Shown here piece after piece: positions 1,995 through 33,154 of a stretch of 38,711 nt of DNA. The stretch lies in assembly GCA_023480825.1 (NCBI GenBank), contig JAMCWQ010000013.1:1-38711 (forward strand), in the 5' to 3' direction. This stretch comes from Chloroflexota bacterium. GTDB taxonomy: Bacteria > Chloroflexota > Chloroflexia > JAMCWQ01. Within the stretch, counting starts at the first letter, position 1; the number at the start of each line of letters is the position of its first letter. The translations under genes were made by a program, and so were the position numbers. The notes beneath the pieces were generated by a model. It did no database searches. It was given only the letters and a program-made list of their open reading frames with translations, and had not been told where the DNA came from.

Positions 1995-4900
1995 CTAGAA
2001 CTTCTTGGATGCGGTGCAACTGTTGTTGGTGCTAACCGGATCATAGGAAGTGGTCTTGACGGAAGCGGTGTTGGAGAACGTGCCAACCGGCTTGTTCAGT
2101 TGGACTTCGATGGTAATGGTCGCCGTCTCGCCTGCTGCCAGGCTGTCCAAGTCGACTGTTACGTTGCTGTTGTTTACCACTTTGTAGGTCGCACCACTCG
2201 GCACTACTATTGACTTGAATGTCGTGCCCTTGGCCAGGTTGTCCTTTATCTCCAATCCTTGGGCGGTGCTGGGCCCGTTGTTGGTTACCTTGATAGTCCA
2301 GGTGATGGTCTTGGTGCTGCTGTTGTAAGCCGGCGCATCCTGAGTGATCTTCACGTCCGCTCGGTTACGCACGTTGGTTGTTACCGTGGAGGTGTTGTTG
2401 GCCGTGTTCGGGTCTTGGTTATTGGAGGTGATGTTAGCAGTGCCCGACACGGTGCCGGTAGCTGCGCTGTCTACCTTCACGACAACAGTAAAGGTTGTCC
2501 GCTCGCCTGTGGCCATGCTCGTTTTAGTGAAGGTCACCGTACCCGTTCCTCCGGCATTTGGTTTAGTGGGGGTCCAGCCGGTAGGAGCGGTAGCGGAGAC
2601 GAAGGTGGTGCCTGCCGGCACGTCGAAGGTGACAACGGGGTTCTGAGCGATACCCAAGCTGGAGTTGGAGGCCACGATGGAGTAGGTGAGGTTGGCGCCG
2701 GCATTCACCGGGTTGGGGGAGGCCGAGAGCCTGACGCTCGGGTCTGCCTGCGTCAGGACTTGGTTTACGGTGATGCTGACCGTTGCTGTGTTGGAGTCGG
2801 CCTTCCCGTCATTGGCCTTGTAGGTGAAGGAATCGGAGCCGTAGTAGCCGGCACTTGGTGTGTAGGTGACCTGGTCGCCGGTGATAGCCGAGAGAGTGCC
2901 GTGAGACGGGCCGGAGACGACGGAATAGGTGAGAGGGTCGCCATCGGCATCGGTGGCATCAAGGGTTATGGTAACGGGAGTACCTTGGTTAGTGGCTACC
3001 GAGACAGGGTTGGCTACCGGCGCAGTGTTGAGTGTCCCGCCTGCGAAGATCGAGCCGTTCAGCTGGCCGATGCTTGGGGTGCTGGAGCCGTCTAGGGTCA
3101 TAGTTACGCAGCCGGTGGTCGAGTCGTAGCTCTGGGGGCTCACGCTCACCCACTCGGTCCCGCTCCACCAGTAGATTGTAGTTGCTCCGTTGAGGTTGCA
3201 GGCTTCGACCGTGAGGGAGGTGAGGCTGCTGCTGGAGGAGACGTAGACGTCGAAGTAGGCGCCAGTGAAGGTGCTGAGGGCCGATCCGCCCGGGTTGCCG
3301 GAGTACTCTGCCACGATGACGGTGCCCTCGCCTGTGCCGGTGGCCGTGACGTCAGCCGTCGATGCTGCAGGATCAGAGCCCGTGCCTACGTCTTGGCTCG
3401 TTACGGTTGTGGTGCTTGGGGTAACGAAGAAGCCCAAGAGGGCTGAGGAGCCACCGCCGGGGGTAGGGTTGAAGACGGTGATCTCGGCCGTGCCGGCGCT
3501 GGCGATATTGGCTGCGGGCACAGAGGCGGTTAGCTGGGTGGAGTTGACAAAGGTAGTGGTGAGGTCAGCGCCATTCCAGCGCACGACGGAGCCGGAGAGG
3601 AAGCCCGAGCCGGTGACCGTCAACGTGAAGCCGCCATCTCCCGCCTGGGCGGTGGCCGGATCGATGGTGGAGAGCACCGGAGCGGGGTTATTTACAGTAA
3701 GGGTAGCGGCATTGCTGGTGGCCGAACCCTGAGAGTTGGTAAAGACCGCCCGGTACTGATAGCCCTCCATGTCCGTGGTCACGCTGCTCAGGGTGAGTGT
3801 TGTAGAAATCTCGCCGCTCATGTCAGCCCATGTCGCCCCGCTGGCCGTGGTCAACTGTTGCCACTGGACAGTCGGCGTCGGGTAGCCACTCCTCGCTGCA
3901 GTGAATGTCGCCGTCTCTCCCGCCGTCTTTGTCTGGCTCTGAGGATCAGTGGTAACGTAAGGCGCTTCATTCACAGTCAGGGTGAAGTACTGGGTGGCAT
4001 CCGGCAAGGTGCCGTTAGTGGCGGTAAGAGTGAGCGGGTAGAGACCGCCAGAGTGGGCGGCAGGGGTACCGACAATGGTAGCTCCTCCACCGCTATTGCT
4101 GGCGAAGTCTACTCCGCTTGGCATCGATCCGGTCTTACTAACCCAAGGAACGGGATTACCAGATGTGGTCACGCTGAATAGCCGGAAGGATCCCACTGCA
4201 AACGTTGCCGTAGCGGGGCTCGTGAACTGGGGTGCAGTACTGGCCGCCGTTACCGTCAAGGTGGCAACATTGGAGTATAGGGTGTTGACAGCGTTAGAGA
4301 CTACCGCCTTGTACTTCCATCCGTTCATGGTTTGCAGGACGTTGGAGAGGGTCAGGCTGGTCTGATGCTCGTCCGCGATGGTGGTGAACGTTGCTCCTCC
4401 ATCTGTGCTACATTGCCAATTTATGCTGGGATTCGGGTAGCCTGCTACCGCTACAGTGAAGGTTGCTGTCCCTCCCACGGTTGCCGTTTGATCAGTTGGT
4501 TGAGTCGTGATGGATGCTGCCTGGTAACAGTGGAGAGTGAGGTCCTGGTAGACAGTATCGACAATATTGTTGGCCATGATAGTCAAGTAGACATTCTGAC
4601 CGCTGGGAGGAGTGCCGCTCAATGTCACCGTTCCATCCCCGTTGTAGACTACCGAAAGCCAGGCTGGGGCATAGAACACCTGTAATGTAGGGGTGGGGTT
4701 ACCCGTAGTGGTAACCGTGAAGGTGCCGGATTGCCCTACCATGAAGGTGGTAGTATCGGCGTTCGTGAAGACGGGTGAGGAGGTGGGAGCGCTGACGGTA
4801 ATGCTTACCTGAGCCACGTTAGAATCGGTCTTGCCGTCATTGGCCTTGAAGGTAAAGGTATCGGGTCCCGTGTAGTCCGAGGCAGGCGTGTAGGTAACCT

Positions 4901-7900
4901 GGTTACCGCTGACGGCAGACAGAGTACCGTGAGTGGGTGTGGTGACTATCGAGTACGTTAAGCTATCACCAGGATCGGCATCGGTCGCGACAAGCGTTAT
5001 TGTCTTTGCTACACCTGCCGTCGCCGTCACATTTTGGTCTTGAGCAACGGGCGGATTATTGGTAGTAGTCACTGTCAGGGTAGCGGCATTGCTGTTAGCC
5101 GAACCCTGAGAGTTGGTAAAGACCGCCCGGTACTGCCAGTTGTTTTTGCTCGTGCCAACGCTCTGAAGCTCGAGTGTGGTCGAGGTAGCTCCAGTAATGT
5201 CTGCCCAACCGAAGCCATCATTCGACTGCCACTGCACGGTTGGCGCTGGGTAGCCACTTGCCGTCGAGGTGAAGACTGCCGTCTCTCCCATTGCTACCGT
5301 CACGCCTTGGGGTTGGGTTATGAGGTAAGGTGCCTCATTGACGGTGAGAGTAAAGGTTTGGGTGGCATTAGGAGTGGTGCCGTTGGAGGCCGTGATGATT
5401 AGCGAATAGGCAGCACCGGAGTGAGCGGCAGGAGTCCCACTGAGGGTGGCAGTGCCGTTCGCGTTGTCCACGAAGCTCACCCCACCCGGCAGTGATCCTG
5501 TTTTAGTGATTGTGGATGTGGGGTCGCCGGTGGTAGTGACAGTAAAGCTGCCAGGGGTTCCGGCCGTGAAGGTTGTGTTGTTGGCGCTGGTTATTTGAGG
5601 TGCAGTGGTCGGGACAACCTCTGTGATGGTTAGCGTTTGAGTGGCGTCAGGCGAGACCCCGTTGGAGGCCTTTAGGTGTATGTAATCTATGCCGGCGCCT
5701 TCATTGGGCGTGCCGCTGATAGTCGCTGTACCATCATGGTTGTCAACGATACTCATCCACAATGGTTCACCTAGGGTCGAAGAGATAGCAGAAATGGGGT
5801 AGCCGGTGGTACTGACCGTGAAGGAGTTGTATTGCCCGATCACGAAGGTGACGCTACTCGCGCTCGTTATCTGAGGCGCCTCATTGACAGTGAAGGTGAA
5901 GTTGTGAGTGTCCTGGCCGCTGCTGTTAGAGGCAGTGATGACAAGTGGGTAGACACCACCCGAGTGAGCGGCAGGGGTGCCATTCATAGTAGCAGTGCCG
6001 TCCCCTCTGTCCCTAAAGGTTATCCCAGCTGGCAGCGTTCCTGTCACAGTGATGGTAGGCGTGGGATTGCCGGTAGTAGTGATCAGGAAGCCGCCATACG
6101 TGCCGGCGGTGAAGGTTGTGCTATTGGCGCTGGTTATTGCCGGCACCGGATTGGTCACAGTCAGGGTGGCGGCACCAGAGTAGGTGGTGCCAGCGACATT
6201 GGTGAATCTCGCCCGGAATCGCCAGCCAGCCCAGCTATCACCTATGCTAAGGGTCGTGTTGGTCTCCCCGGGGAGATAGGCCCAGTACGATCCATCAAGG
6301 CTGCCCTCCCACTGCACGGTTGGCGTTGGGTAGCCGCTCGCCGCTGCTGTAAAGGTCGCCATGTTGCCCACTATTATTGTCACGTCTTGGGGTTGAGTAG
6401 TGACATAGGGCTTCTCATTGACGGTCAGGGTGAAGGCCTGGGTAGCGTCAGGCGAGATGCCGTTGGAGGCAGTAATTGTAAGCGGGTAGACTCCGCCAGT
6501 GCCGGAAGAGGGAGTACCCTGGAGGAGGTACGGTCCAGCCATATATTGACCAAAACTCACCCCAGCGGGAAGCGCCCCGGTTTTCGAGATGGAAGGAGTG
6601 GGCTTGCCCGTGGCCGTGACTGTGAACGTGCCCGAAGCGCCCACCGTAAGGGTGGTATGGTCAGGAGATGTTATCTGAGGAGCGGTATCCGGAGCAACCC
6701 TATTGATCGTTAGGGTCTGGGTGGCATCAGGAGAGATGCCGTTGGAAGCCACTAGGTAGATCATATCGGCTCCCTCGGTGGAAGCCGGAGTGCCGCTAAT
6801 CGTCGCTGTCCCGTCCCCATTGTCGTGGAAGTTGTATGTACCCATCGTTTTAGAGATAGTGGGAATGGGGTAACCGCTGGTGGTTACGGTAAAGACGCCT
6901 GTCTGCCCAATCATGAAAGTAGTGCTGGCCGGACTGGTGAACTTGGGCGATTCATTGATGGTCAGGGTGAAGGGCTGGCTGATATTACCACCACTGTTAG
7001 TGGCAGTGATGGTGAGCGGATAGATCTTACCCGAGCCGGCCGCTGGGGTGCCGCTAAGGGTAGCTGTCCCATTGCTGTTGTCCACGAAGGTCACACCATT
7101 TGGAAGTGTCCCCGTTTGACTAATAGAGATCGGAGCGGTGCCGGTAGCCGTGATGTTAAAAGTTCCGGCTGTGCCAGCAGTAAAGGTAGTATTGTTGGCA
7201 CTCGTTATCGAAGGTGCGGTGGCCGGCGTGGTTCCCTGGAACTCATAGGCCCCCATATCGACTATCGGCGCAGTGCCGCTGCCGGTGTCCGGTGTACCGG
7301 TGTCGTCCTTGAAGCGGGGATTGCCGTCGAGGTCGGTGCCGGCGGTAATGACGGAATTGTTGCCGGCATCGATGCAAGGGGAACCGGCGCCGAGATGGAA
7401 ACCGGAGGTGAACTTGGGATCGAGATTGATGTTCTTGGTGCCCGCATAGCTTCCCTGCACATCGCTGTAGGAGACGGCCGGCTGCAAAGGCGAGGCTGAG
7501 CTGATCTCCGGCGAGGAGTCACTCCAGAATATAGAGTTGCTGACGTTGCAGGTGATGTTCATCCCCAGTCGCAGAGCGCCAGCTGAGCCGGCGGCGTTGG
7601 TGTTGCCGCTGAAGGTGCAGTTGGTTATGGTAGCCGTGCTGTACGAGTAGACGTTTATCGCACCGCCCGCCCCAGTTGCCCCCGTTGCCTGGTTGCCCTG
7701 GAAGAGGCAGTTGGTTACCTTCAGCTCGTTGCTGAGGCCGCTGCCGCCCCACCTTATGGCCCCACCGCCGTTGGCGCCCGTAGAGCCGCCCGACCCGGCG
7801 GCGGTGTTGCCGGTGAATTTGACGTTCGTCAGGTCCGCTTTCATGGTGTAGTAGCTGTTCTGGTTGTCGCCATATATGGCCCCGCCATCGCCGGATGAGC

Positions 7901-10160
7901 TGTTGCTATTGAATGTGCCGCCGTTGATGGTCAGGTTAATGCCGCCATAGCCCGGAACCATGTTTATGGCGCCGCCGGCGGTGGCGGAAGAGTTGCCCTG
8001 GAAGGTCACGTTAGTCATTGTCACATTGGTGGGCGATGGGGAGTCCAGATATACCGCCCCGCCTTTTCCATTGACGGAGGTGTAGTTGTTGGTGAAGGTG
8101 ACGTCGGTGAAAGTGGGGCTGCCGATGTAGACACACGCCGCTCCGCCCCCGGAGTTGGCGTGGTTATTAGTAAAGGTAACGTTGGTGAGTGAGGTGTTGC
8201 CGGCACCAAGGTAGGCGCCGCCACCGTATTGGCTGGCGAAGTTACCATCGAACTTGAGATTGCGGAGTGTCGGGCTGCCGGCGCTGCTGGCTTCGATATA
8301 CAGACCGCCCCCATGGTAGGTAGGATAAACAGTATAATTGGCGTTGCCGCCGGTGATGGTGAAGCCGTCGAGGATGGCGCTGCTATCAACTCCGGAGCCG
8401 GTGACCACGTGGTAGGAGTTGTCGGTGGCAGTTCCTGCCGTGCCGACGTCACCGCTCAGGATAGTGCCATTCGTAGCCGGGTCGGAGTTGCGCTGGTTGG
8501 GGCTGATCTCGCCTCCGGAGAACCCACCGTAGATCGCTACCCCGTTCTTCAGCGCGAAGGTGGCGGTCCTGTCCGTTGCACCGGGCTTGTAGGTGCCCGC
8601 GGCCACCCAAATCTGTTTGCCGGAAGTAGCCGCAGAAAGAGCCGACTGGAGGCTTGTATATGCCGTGCCCCACGATGTGCCATCCCCGGGCGGAGTAGCA
8701 CCAGCATTAACGTAGATTACGGACCCCGGTACCACCTGGGCTTCGTACGCCCCCATATCTACCGTGCCGTTGAAGATGCGGGGGTTACCGTCGAGGTCGG
8801 TGGTCACGCCGCTAGGAACGGCAGTATTATCGCCTTTATCGATGCACGGAGAAGTGAGTTGGAGATGGAGGTCGGTGGAGGAGACGAATTGGGGGTTGGC
8901 ATCAATGTTGCCGGTGCCTGGGTAGACTCCCCCCCATTGATCTTTTAGGTCGCTGTAGGTAGCCGTGTACTCGCCGGCAAACCATCCGCCGTTAGCACCT
9001 GCCCCCCAAATGATAGAGTTGGCAATTGTTTGAGTGGTGAGCGACTGGGCAAAGAATTCGCTCCAGTCGGGCGCCGAGTTGTTTGCGATGGTGACGTTAG
9101 TCAGTACGGCAGTCCCAGGGAAGACATAGAGACCACCGCCACCGTAGCTGTTGGAGATGTTACCCCTAAAGAGGACGTTGGTAAGGCTTGGGCTGCCAGT
9201 GTAGACGTCCATGCCACCCCCGCCTCGACTGGTGGAGCTGCACTCGTTCCCGGTGAACTGGACGTTGGTCAGGACAGCATTTGCTCCGATATCAGAGAAC
9301 CCGCCACCCGACCCGGCGGCCTGGTTTCCGGTAAACCGGACGTTATTTAGGGTGGGGTATTGATACTGTGACGTGGTAGCCATTCCGCCGCCATCGGCTC
9401 CGGCAGTATTCGAGTCGAAATCCACGTTGTCAAGGGCTATCTTCCCAGTTGCGAACAAACCTCCTCCGGAGACGGAGGCCTGGTTGTTGCTGAAGGTGAC
9501 GTTCGTCAACGTCGTCCAGGCGGTATCATTACTCCAGTAGAACATGCCGCCGCCGCCGTAATTCACATCCCCCGTGGCGTTGCCGGTTACAATTAGATTT
9601 CTGAAGGTTGTGGCCCCGTAGTCTTGGTAGATGCCGGCGCCGGGCGCCGGGCCGTAGCCCCCTGTGATGGTGAATCCGTCGAGCACTGCCGAGGTGTTGC
9701 TTGGCATGGCCAACGTGCTCGCGGTTACCACATGGTAGGAGTTGTCGGTGCTCACGCCTGTGTCACCGATATTCCCGCTCAAGATGGTCACGTTGGCCTT
9801 CCAGTCGCGTTGGTCGAGGCTGGTCTCAGTGCCCGCAAAGCCGCCATAGATTGCTACGTCATTCTTCATCCGAAACGTAGCATTGCGGTCGGTGCCGCTT
9901 GCCGGCTTGTAGGTGCCGGCCGCCACCCAGATCTGATCGCCAGAGGCCGCGGACGATAGTGCCGATTGCAGGTCGTTATAGGCTGTGCCCCATGAGGTGC
10001 CGTTCCCGCCGGCGGGCGCGGAGGCTCGCACGAACCAGGTACTTCCCGTCGCCGATGCGACATTGACCGTGCTAGGTACCAGGCCGCCAAGCAGGGACAG
10101 CAATAGGGCTAAGACGACGAAGATGTGGATGAGGTTCCTGGTTCTAGTATTGACTGTCAT
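1995..10160 (-). CDS. giant secreted repeat protein: two beta-helix modules, Ig-like/cadherin-like repeats, DUF11 C-terminus
   Basis: A 2721-residue secreted protein, probably a surface or matrix adhesin or sheath component. Residues 1-37 are a Sec signal peptide (hydrophobic core FVVLALLLSLLGGLV, cleavage near ASA). Two copies of a right-handed beta-helix module follow (about 41-475 and 483-975). Each opens with DGTSWGTAY/GNGTSWGTAY and closes with VDMGAYE, the pattern of choice-of-anchor Q/pectate-lyase-like repeats, with many N-x-T/GGG turns. Next come numerous putative-Ig repeats (about 980-1690 and 1795-2155; LSGTPA, PLTITASNG and QPQ...VTVxxG types), two cadherin-like tandem domains (about 1700-1795 and 2378-2465), an IPT/TIG-like domain (about 2157-2245), and two DUF11 repeats to the C-terminus. 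There is no LPXTG motif or terminal membrane helix, so retention is unexplained. Start: AAGGA lies 8 nt before the ATG. Ligand and exact role are unknown. Confidence 0.9.
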   Translation of the reverse strand: MTVNTRTRNLIHIFVVLALLLSLLGGLVPSTVNVASATGSTWFVRASAPAGGNGTSWGTAYNDLQSALSSAASGDQIWVAAGTYKPASGTDRNATFRMKNDVAIYGGFAGTETSLDQRDWKANVTILSGNIGDTGVSTDNSYHVVTASTLAMPSNTSAVLDGFTITGGYGPAPGAGIYQDYGATTFRNLIVTGNATGDVNYGGGGMFYWSNDTAWTTLTNVTFSNNQASVSGGGLFATGKIALDNVDFDSNTAGADGGGMATTSQYQYPTLNNVRFTGNQAAGSGGGFSDIGANAVLTNVQFTGNECSSTSRGGGGMDVYTGSPSLTNVLFRGNISNSYGGGGLYVFPGTAVLTNVTIANNSAPDWSEFFAQSLTTQTIANSIIWGAGANGGWFAGEYTATYSDLKDQWGGVYPGTGNIDANPQFVSSTDLHLQLTSPCIDKGDNTAVPSGVTTDLDGNPRIFNGTVDMGAYEAQVVPGSVIYVNAGATPPGDGTSWGTAYTSLQSALSAATSGKQIWVAAGTYKPGATDRTATFALKNGVAIYGGFSGGEISPNQRNSDPATNGTILSGDVGTAGTATDNSYHVVTGSGVDSSAILDGFTITGGNANYTVYPTYHGGGLYIEASSAGSPTLRNLKFDGNFASQYGGGAYLGAGNTSLTNVTFTNNHANSGGGAACVYIGSPTFTDVTFTNNYTSVNGKGGAVYLDSPSPTNVTMTNVTFQGNSSATAGGAINMVPGYGGINLTINGGTFNSNSSSGDGGAIYGDNQNSYYTMKADLTNVKFTGNTAAGSGGSTGANGGGAIRWGGSGLSNELKVTNCLFQGNQATGATGAGGAINVYSYSTATITNCTFSGNTNAAGSAGALRLGMNITCNVSNSIFWSDSSPEISSASPLQPAVSYSDVQGSYAGTKNINLDPKFTSGFHLGAGSPCIDAGNNSVITAGTDLDGNPRFKDDTGTPDTGSGTAPIVDMGAYEFQGTTPATAPSITSANNTTFTAGTAGTFNITATGTAPISISQTGTLPNGVTFVDNSNGTATLSGTPAAGSGKIYPLTITATNSGGNISQPFTLTINESPKFTSPASTTFMIGQTGVFTVTTSGYPIPTISKTMGTYNFHDNGDGTATISGTPASTEGADMIYLVASNGISPDATQTLTINRVAPDTAPQITSPDHTTLTVGASGTFTVTATGKPTPSISKTGALPAGVSFGQYMAGPYLLQGTPSSGTGGVYPLTITASNGISPDATQAFTLTVNEKPYVTTQPQDVTIIVGNMATFTAAASGYPTPTVQWEGSLDGSYWAYLPGETNTTLSIGDSWAGWRFRARFTNVAGTTYSGAATLTVTNPVPAITSANSTTFTAGTYGGFLITTTGNPTPTITVTGTLPAGITFRDRGDGTATMNGTPAAHSGGVYPLVITASNSSGQDTHNFTFTVNEAPQITSASSVTFVIGQYNSFTVSTTGYPISAISSTLGEPLWMSIVDNHDGTATISGTPNEGAGIDYIHLKASNGVSPDATQTLTITEVVPTTAPQITSANNTTFTAGTPGSFTVTTTGDPTSTITKTGSLPGGVSFVDNANGTATLSGTPAAHSGAAYSLIITASNGTTPNATQTFTLTVNEAPYLITQPQGVTVAMGETAVFTSTASGYPAPTVQWQSNDGFGWADITGATSTTLELQSVGTSKNNWQYRAVFTNSQGSANSNAATLTVTTTNNPPVAQDQNVTATAGVAKTITLVATDADPGDSLTYSIVTTPTHGTLSAVSGNQVTYTPASDYTGPDTFTFKANDGKTDSNVAQVSITVSAPTSSPVFTNADTTTFMVGQSGTFTVTTTGNPTPTLQVFYAPAWLSVVYNGDGTVTLSGTPPSGQNVYLTIMANNIVDTVYQDLTLHCYQAASITTQPTDQTATVGGTATFTVAVAGYPNPSINWQCSTDGGATFTTIADEHQTSLTLSNVLQTMNGWKYKAVVSNAVNTLYSNVATLTVTAASTAPQFTSPATATFAVGSFRLFSVTTSGNPVPWVSKTGSMPSGVDFASNSGGGATIVGTPAAHSGGLYPLTLTATNGTLPDATQYFTLTVNEAPYVTTDPQSQTKTAGETATFTAARSGYPTPTVQWQQLTTASGATWADMSGEISTTLTLSSVTTDMEGYQYRAVFTNSQGSATSNAATLTVNNPAPVLSTIDPATAQAGDGGFTLTVTGSGFLSGSVVRWNGADLTTTFVNSTQLTASVPAANIASAGTAEITVFNPTPGGGSSALLGFFVTPSTTTVTSQDVGTGSDPAASTADVTATGTGEGTVIVAEYSGNPGGSALSTFTGAYFDVYVSSSSSLTSLTVEACNLNGATTIYWWSGTEWVSVSPQSYDSTTGCVTMTLDGSSTPSIGQLNGSIFAGGTLNTAPVANPVSVATNQGTPVTITLDATDADGDPLTYSVVSGPSHGTLSAITGDQVTYTPSAGYYGSDSFTYKANDGKADSNTATVSITVNQVLTQADPSVRLSASPNPVNAGANLTYSIVASNSSLGIAQNPVVTFDVPAGTTFVSATAPTGWTPTKPNAGGTGTVTFTKTSMATGERTTFTVVVKVDSAATGTVSGTANITSNNQDPNTANNTSTVTTNVRNRADVKITQDAPAYNSSTKTITWTIKVTNNGPSTAQGLEIKDNLAKGTTFKSIVVPSGATYKVVNNSNVTVDLDSLAAGETATITIEVQLNKPVGTFSNTASVKTTSYDPVSTNNSCTASKKF

Positions 10161-32757: not shown

Positions 32758-32766
32758 AGGAGGTGA
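32758..32766 (+). promoter_or_regulatory. full nine-base Shine-Dalgarno of the rhodanese gene
   Basis: AGGAGGTGA at 32758-32766 is a full match to the usual 16S rRNA 3' end. It lies 4 nt before the ATG at 32771, with the GGAGG core 7 nt from it. Such a site argues against the downstream frame being a decayed pseudogene. Confidence 0.75.
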
Positions 32767-32770
32767 AGGA

Positions 32771-33154
32771 ATGCAGGGGAGCCCGTCACTGGACGATGCG
32801 CCTCGCATTGGTTTGTCCGAGGCGGAGGCAAAATTCGAGATGAAGACAGCGGTCTTCGTCGATGTGCGGACCAGCGAGGAATTTGAGCGCTCACACATTC
32901 CGGGAGCGATTTCGATGCCGCTACGGGAGTTTGGCCGCCGGGCTGGTGAGTTACCGCGTGACCGCTCCATCATCTTTTACTGAACCTGAGCGAAAGAGGA
33001 ATACAGCGCCCGGGCGGCGCTGCTGTTGCTAAGACGGGGATTCAGAAACGTGCAAGCACTCAAGGGCGGCCTACACGGTTGGCAAGCAGCAGGTTATCGT
33101 CTTGAGGGCATGCATGCTGAAATCAGGCTGGAAGCCCACCGCGAAGGCCATTAG
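32771..33154 (+). CDS. rhodanese-domain protein, candidate selenoprotein with two in-frame UGA codons (U-T-U active site)
   Basis: Conventional reading stops after 70 residues at FY. The same frame then runs TGA-ACC-TGA and stays open to a TAG at 33152, giving 127 residues. The upstream half has rhodanese landmarks (FVDVRTSEEFERSHIPGAISMPL). The part after the TGAs has the rest of the fold (SARAALLLLRRGF, VQALKGGLHGWQAAGY). The first TGA falls exactly at the catalytic cysteine position (IIFY-U-T-U-AKEEYSARAA), the second two residues later, where a C-x-C variant would have its second cysteine. TGA is a normal stop elsewhere in the window. A perfect hairpin follows at 33004-33022. The expected activity is sulfur or selenium transfer or redox. 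The main alternative is a two-stop pseudogene. No sel genes are in the window. Confidence 0.75.
33004..33022 (+). promoter_or_regulatory. candidate bacterial SECIS hairpin
   Basis: CAGCGCC (33004-33010) pairs exactly with GGCGCTG (33016-33022) around the loop CGGGC. The apical loop begins 27 nt after the first TGA and 21 nt after the second. Bacterial SECIS elements, as I recall them, have a short stem with a G near the start of the loop about 16-37 nt after the UGA; this hairpin satisfies that for both UGAs. Such elements are sequence-variable, so this is a structural match only. Confidence 0.55.

Follow-up and report, generated by a model that had tools for sequence, protein, structure and literature searches.

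The closest described relatives of the gene analysed here are rhodanese-like selenoproteins. A 2026 inventory gives the NF041203-type rhodanese (rhodanese_LYCAU, rhodanese-like selenoprotein form 3) as a C-x-U protein with one Sec, and the only other two-Sec rhodaneses in it are the TsoB proteins (rhodanese/DsbD fusion-like selenoprotein, NF045694), which have a U-x-x-x-x-U arrangement (PMC13188914). Forms 1, 2 and 4 carry a single Sec at the canonical catalytic position, in U-x-x-S or U-x-x-G loops (PMC13188914).

Our gene lies in a 38,711-nucleotide stretch of a Chloroflexota metagenome-assembled genome (MAG), referred to below as the window, and encodes a rhodanese with predicted Sec at residues 71 and 73 (U71-T-U73). 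NF041203, titled 'rhodanese-related (seleno)protein', is the best NCBIfam match of the protein (81.3 bits), and the two share the loop U-x-x-E-x-x-S-A-R with Sec at the second position. They differ in that the NF041203 type is C-x-U with one Sec, whereas the window protein has a second predicted Sec at the first loop residue. The match is below the model's 115-bit cut-off; likewise no match in 400 Chloroflexota genomes reaches 115. TsoB resembles the window protein in having a rhodanese domain with two Sec, but its Sec residues are spaced by five rather than two, and it is a DsbD-like fusion of ∼ 570 amino acids whose model (NF045694) the window protein matches weakly (31 bits). Forms 1, 2 and 4 have Sec where U71 is found, but in a different loop that lacks the second Sec. 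No mention of a U-x-U rhodanese was found in the open literature searched, although an earlier mention in papers on new selenoprotein families (Haft) is possible. The U-x-U rhodanese adds a second Sec to a known one-Sec selenoprotein family and is a variant of it, rather than a new kind of system.

The rhodanese gene and its two in-frame UGA codons

With TGA translated as Sec, the gene (32771–33154, plus strand) encodes 127 residues from an ATG to a TAG stop at 33152–33154. The assignment draws on this translation, on PF00581 and NF041203, and on an AlphaFold2 model. UGA codon 71 (32981–32983, plus strand) occupies the canonical rhodanese catalytic position, where relatives have Cys or Sec; UGA codon 73 (32987–32989, plus strand) is the Sec position common to the C-x-U relatives. 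An earlier note, made from the DNA of the window, had described two in-frame TGA codons at residues 71 and 73 of a continuous rhodanese, a complete nine-base Shine-Dalgarno sequence and no other lesion. All three descriptions hold: coordinates, frame and both codons are as given, the Shine-Dalgarno sequence AGGAGGTGA is found at 32758–32766 (plus strand) with the ATG 4 nt downstream, and apart from TGA71 and TGA73 there is no further stop in the ORF. Standard gene callers end the protein at residue 70, and the U-x-U class is therefore likely to be truncated in databases. Elsewhere in the window, a single 2,721-residue ORF on the minus strand (1995–10160) contains repeated adhesin-like domains, by eye a right-handed beta-helix and Ig-like repeats.

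The read-through product matches PF00581 (Rhodanese) over residues 17–107 with 69 bits (cut-off 22.2, E 5e-19). AlphaFold2, given an alignment of 28 U-x-U relatives, predicted a rhodanese fold with confidence (mean pLDDT 91), in which strand 66–70 is followed by loop 71–76 and helix 77–88. Because the strand leads directly into the loop, U71 takes the place of the catalytic Cys of rhodaneses, with U73 two residues on in the same loop. Rhodaneses in the PDB match the predicted fold (E about 1e-8). BH2092 (3nhv), Alr3790 (3ilm) and the YgaP domain (5hbo) have the same fold (TM-score about 0.62–0.73 by query length), but are Cys enzymes without the U-x-U loop. By its N-terminus the window's clade is cytosolic; other clades have signal-peptide-like N-termini. 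Thiosulfate or mercaptopyruvate sulfurtransferase activity is a further mark of the rhodanese family.

Conservation of the U-x-U loop

Relatives were sought in the GTDB 220 collection with a degenerate DNA pattern (Tyr/Phe, TGA, x, TGA, x, x, Glu, x, x, Ser, Ala, Arg, Ala/Val/Gly) that allowed all synonymous Ser, Ala and Arg codons. The scan gave 82 stretches, 80 of which were obtained as loci. These were tested against a profile of C-x-U relatives in which the U positions had been masked (E < 1e-10), and 62 of the 80 were recognized as rhodaneses that have TGA-x-TGA in the two places where the window gene has it. The remaining 18 are chance matches, a number close to the ∼ 20 roughly expected for a collection of this size; five matches to the same pattern in viral contigs were all due to chance. 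Judged from record titles, the 62 U-x-U genes come from at least seven phyla, with members in Chloroflexota, Nitrospirota, Thermodesulfobacteriota and other 'Deltaproteobacteria', Planctomycetota, Acidobacteriota, Armatimonadota and Actinomycetota. Not one other stop occurs in the 5,501 codons surrounding TGA-x-TGA in these genes. In nine relatives whose neighbouring ORF translations were inspected by eye, no shared neighbour was seen beyond an apparent universal-stress protein gene adjoining two of them (L122 and L136).

A family profile gave 40 matches in 37 of 400 Chloroflexota genomes. The only internal stop codon in these matches is TGA, and some have no internal stop; TAA and TAG do not occur. 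Most have a C-T-U or C-A-U loop and three have U-T-U (in genomes G338, G215 and G208). In this phylum C-x-U, the form of the known NF041203 'LYCAU' selenoprotein, is the commoner one. Cys and Sec are exchanged at the UGA positions among C-x-U and U-x-U relatives, and locus L179 has a gene laid out in the same way with Cys-x-Cys. Homologues that end at the first TGA, or that carry extra stops or frameshifts, were not encountered; they have U-x-U or C-x-U instead. Selenoproteome surveys include Sec-containing rhodanese-like proteins, and the immediate family, NF041203, is a known C-x-U selenoprotein. The earlier note had thought a U-x-U version unusual; with 62 relatives, it is not a one-off.

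SECIS hairpin and Sec decoding

A bacterial SECIS hairpin (CAGCGCC-CGGGC-GGCGCTG; 33004–33022, plus strand) starts 14 nt downstream of the second UGA. It was assigned from its fold, a covariance model, codon fixation with covariation, and the published bSECIS rules (PMC13188914). A 7-bp stem (33004–33010 paired with 33016–33022) closes the loop CGGGC (33011–33015), with a fold energy of -17.9 kcal/mol, and the loop is 27 nt from UGA71 and 21 nt from UGA73. The rules call for a loop of 3–9 nt, a stem of 4–16 bp, a G in the first two loop positions, 16–37 nt from UGA to loop and an MFE of at most -7.5 kcal/mol (PMC13188914); the window hairpin falls within every one of these limits for both UGAs.

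Every one of the relatives has such a hairpin shortly past the second TGA, and the Ser-Ala-Arg codons that form it are rigidly kept as AGY-GCC-CGK in the U-x-U relatives. Ser is AGY in all 62 (background 0.34 at the same loci) and Ala is GCC in 61 (background 0.42), giving a family hairpin consensus of G-Y-G-C-C [CGKGY] G-G-C-R-C. The third base of the Ser codon covaries with an Ala third base across the 62 relatives (C-G in 30, U-A in 26; Fisher p 2e-12, a value inflated, as are the codon statistics, by ignoring shared ancestry). Both sites are synonymous, so the protein does not explain this covariation. The window's own loop CGGGC is rare, being found in one of the 62 relatives, and G-G occupies those two loop positions in 16. 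A covariance model of the hairpin of the 62 genes, trained with the window left out, matched the window at 32990–33031 (37.8 bits, E 2.8e-8); the runner-up scored 15.8 bits within the window and 13.5 bits in the whole genome. The same model gave 27–48 bits for 31 Sec rhodaneses and at most 12.8 bits for Cys rhodanese loci. Rfam SECIS_1 (RF00031) had no match in the source genome, and no Rfam SECIS was found in the gene. Bacterial SECIS sequences vary from gene to gene, so this outcome was to be expected, and a family-specific model was built for that reason.

The source MAG (1.57 Mb, 51% complete) encodes SelB, a 633-residue ORF scoring 351 bits in total (cut-off 242), and SelD (G000:C47:3149-4075, L168), scoring 395 bits (cut-off 125). 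The active site of SelD reads GAGUACK with an in-frame TGA, making this Sec-type SelD an independent selenoprotein of the same genome; a foldable stem-loop follows the TGA. A candidate tRNA-Sec with a TCA anticodon (G000:C49:5840-5924, L048:1341-1425, minus strand) scores 53.8 bits (Rfam cut-off 47). Its anticodon arm, variable arm and T arm are sound, but the 5′ acceptor strand is mismatched and does not pair with the intact 3′ strand GCGCCCCC. ARAGORN did not call it, and it lies ∼ 70 nt from a 10-N scaffold gap. Neither an intact copy of selC nor SelA (best match 52 bits, cut-off 268) was found in the 51%-complete MAG. The tRNA anomaly may reflect either an assembly fault or an odd selC; an assembly fault together with the missing half of the genome would be the simplest reasons for the anomalous selC and the absent SelA. 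Of the four sel genes that the earlier note proposed to look for, selB and selD are therefore present above cut-off, as is a tRNA-Sec candidate with an anomalous acceptor strand, and selA was not found.

These data are consistent with a functional selenoprotein gene. We consider it very probable that the window encodes a soluble single-domain rhodanese in which SelB and tRNA-Sec decode both UGAs with the help of a single in-frame SECIS. The suggestion that this is an unannotated selenoprotein is strongly supported by the 62 relatives, the hairpin, and selB with a Sec-type selD. One hairpin would serve two UGAs six bases apart, SelB and tRNA-Sec inserting Sec at each. With UGA73 in the A site, 14 nt are left to the stem, so the hairpin should outlast the first insertion and serve again.

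It is very improbable that UGA73 alone is efficiently decoded as Sec, with UGA71 acting as a leaky or regulatory stop read otherwise (e.g. as Cys or Trp) to give what is effectively an x-T-U product. C-x-U is the commoner form in Chloroflexota, the hairpin is equally placed in both forms, and the residue inserted at UGA71 is not readable from sequence, all of which suit such a product; on the other hand, the alternatives at codon 71 in relatives are TGY (Cys) or TGA, the pattern of a Cys/Sec exchange, and UGA71 is 27 nt from the loop, within the 16–37 nt range (PMC13188914). A pseudogene, the 70-residue remnant of a C-x-C rhodanese that has acquired two nonsense mutations, is hardly credible: the TGAs do break a gene whose distant homologues use Cys, and the genome has a Cys rhodanese paralogue (C40), but 62 genes of many different phyla keep both TGAs and show no further lesion, neither TAA nor TAG occurs inside the 40 Chloroflexota family matches, and the SECIS hairpin is conserved downstream, which refutes this reading for the family. 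C40, the second rhodanese match in the genome, was also considered as another TGA gene and rejected; it is a Cys rhodanese gene that simply terminates at its TGA.

Exchange at the first loop position and possible chemistry

Interchange of Cys and Sec at a single codon (TGY/TGA) is the classic exchange in selenoproteins. Few prokaryotic proteins have two Sec residues. The C-x-U relatives have the same SECIS hairpin at the same distance as the U-x-U genes, so codon 71 is already within reach of the SECIS and a change from C-x-U to U-x-U needs only TGC or TGT to become TGA. A tree of 89 domains (117 columns, the two trait columns masked) requires at least eight switches between the forms, four of them forced by well supported branches; many of its forks are open, and its sampling is uneven, U-x-U genes having been drawn by pattern from all of GTDB and C-x-U genes from Chloroflexota only. 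The Chloroflexota genome G208 has U-T-U (L080, G208:C3) and C-T-U (L071, G208:C16) paralogues in one fully supported clade. The tree indicates that Cys and Sec have interchanged repeatedly at the first loop position. Such repeated switching at codon 71 would follow if one third-base change suffices under an existing SECIS.

For the two-Sec protein, we suggest that U71 could be the nucleophile and U73 the resolving group. U71 would take on sulfane sulfur or selenium, or be oxidized; an attack on U71 by U73 would then either free the cargo or yield a diselenide or selenenylsulfide, to be reduced by cellular thiols. The predicted loop could thus support sulfane sulfur or selenium carriage (as persulfide or perselenide) or a diselenide cycle, and we favour neither. 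In two MAGs, 'Syntrophobacterales' and 'Deltaproteobacteria', a single ORF joins a U-A-U rhodanese domain with a multihaem c-type cytochrome (PF13447, PF13435; L128:1430-2983 and L094:924-2540, minus strand). Four further loci (L087, L163, L160 and L164) look like similar fusions, judged from downstream CxxCH motifs. For the cytochrome-fused clades, the fusion in two 'Deltaproteobacteria' proteins leans towards redox chemistry. A broader proposal is possible but rather doubtful: that U-x-U proteins form a widespread class in which one SECIS directs two Sec one codon apart, the first site moves between Cys and Sec by third-base changes, and the paired selenols are a diselenide redox centre in a rhodanese fold, joined in some lineages to multihaem cytochromes, rather than an ordinary sulfurtransferase.

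The hairpin offers a natural, compact test case of one SECIS/SelB complex serving two UGAs that lie six nucleotides from each other. Matched pairs of C-x-U and U-x-U genes, including one from a single genome (G208), provide a means to ask what the second selenium adds.
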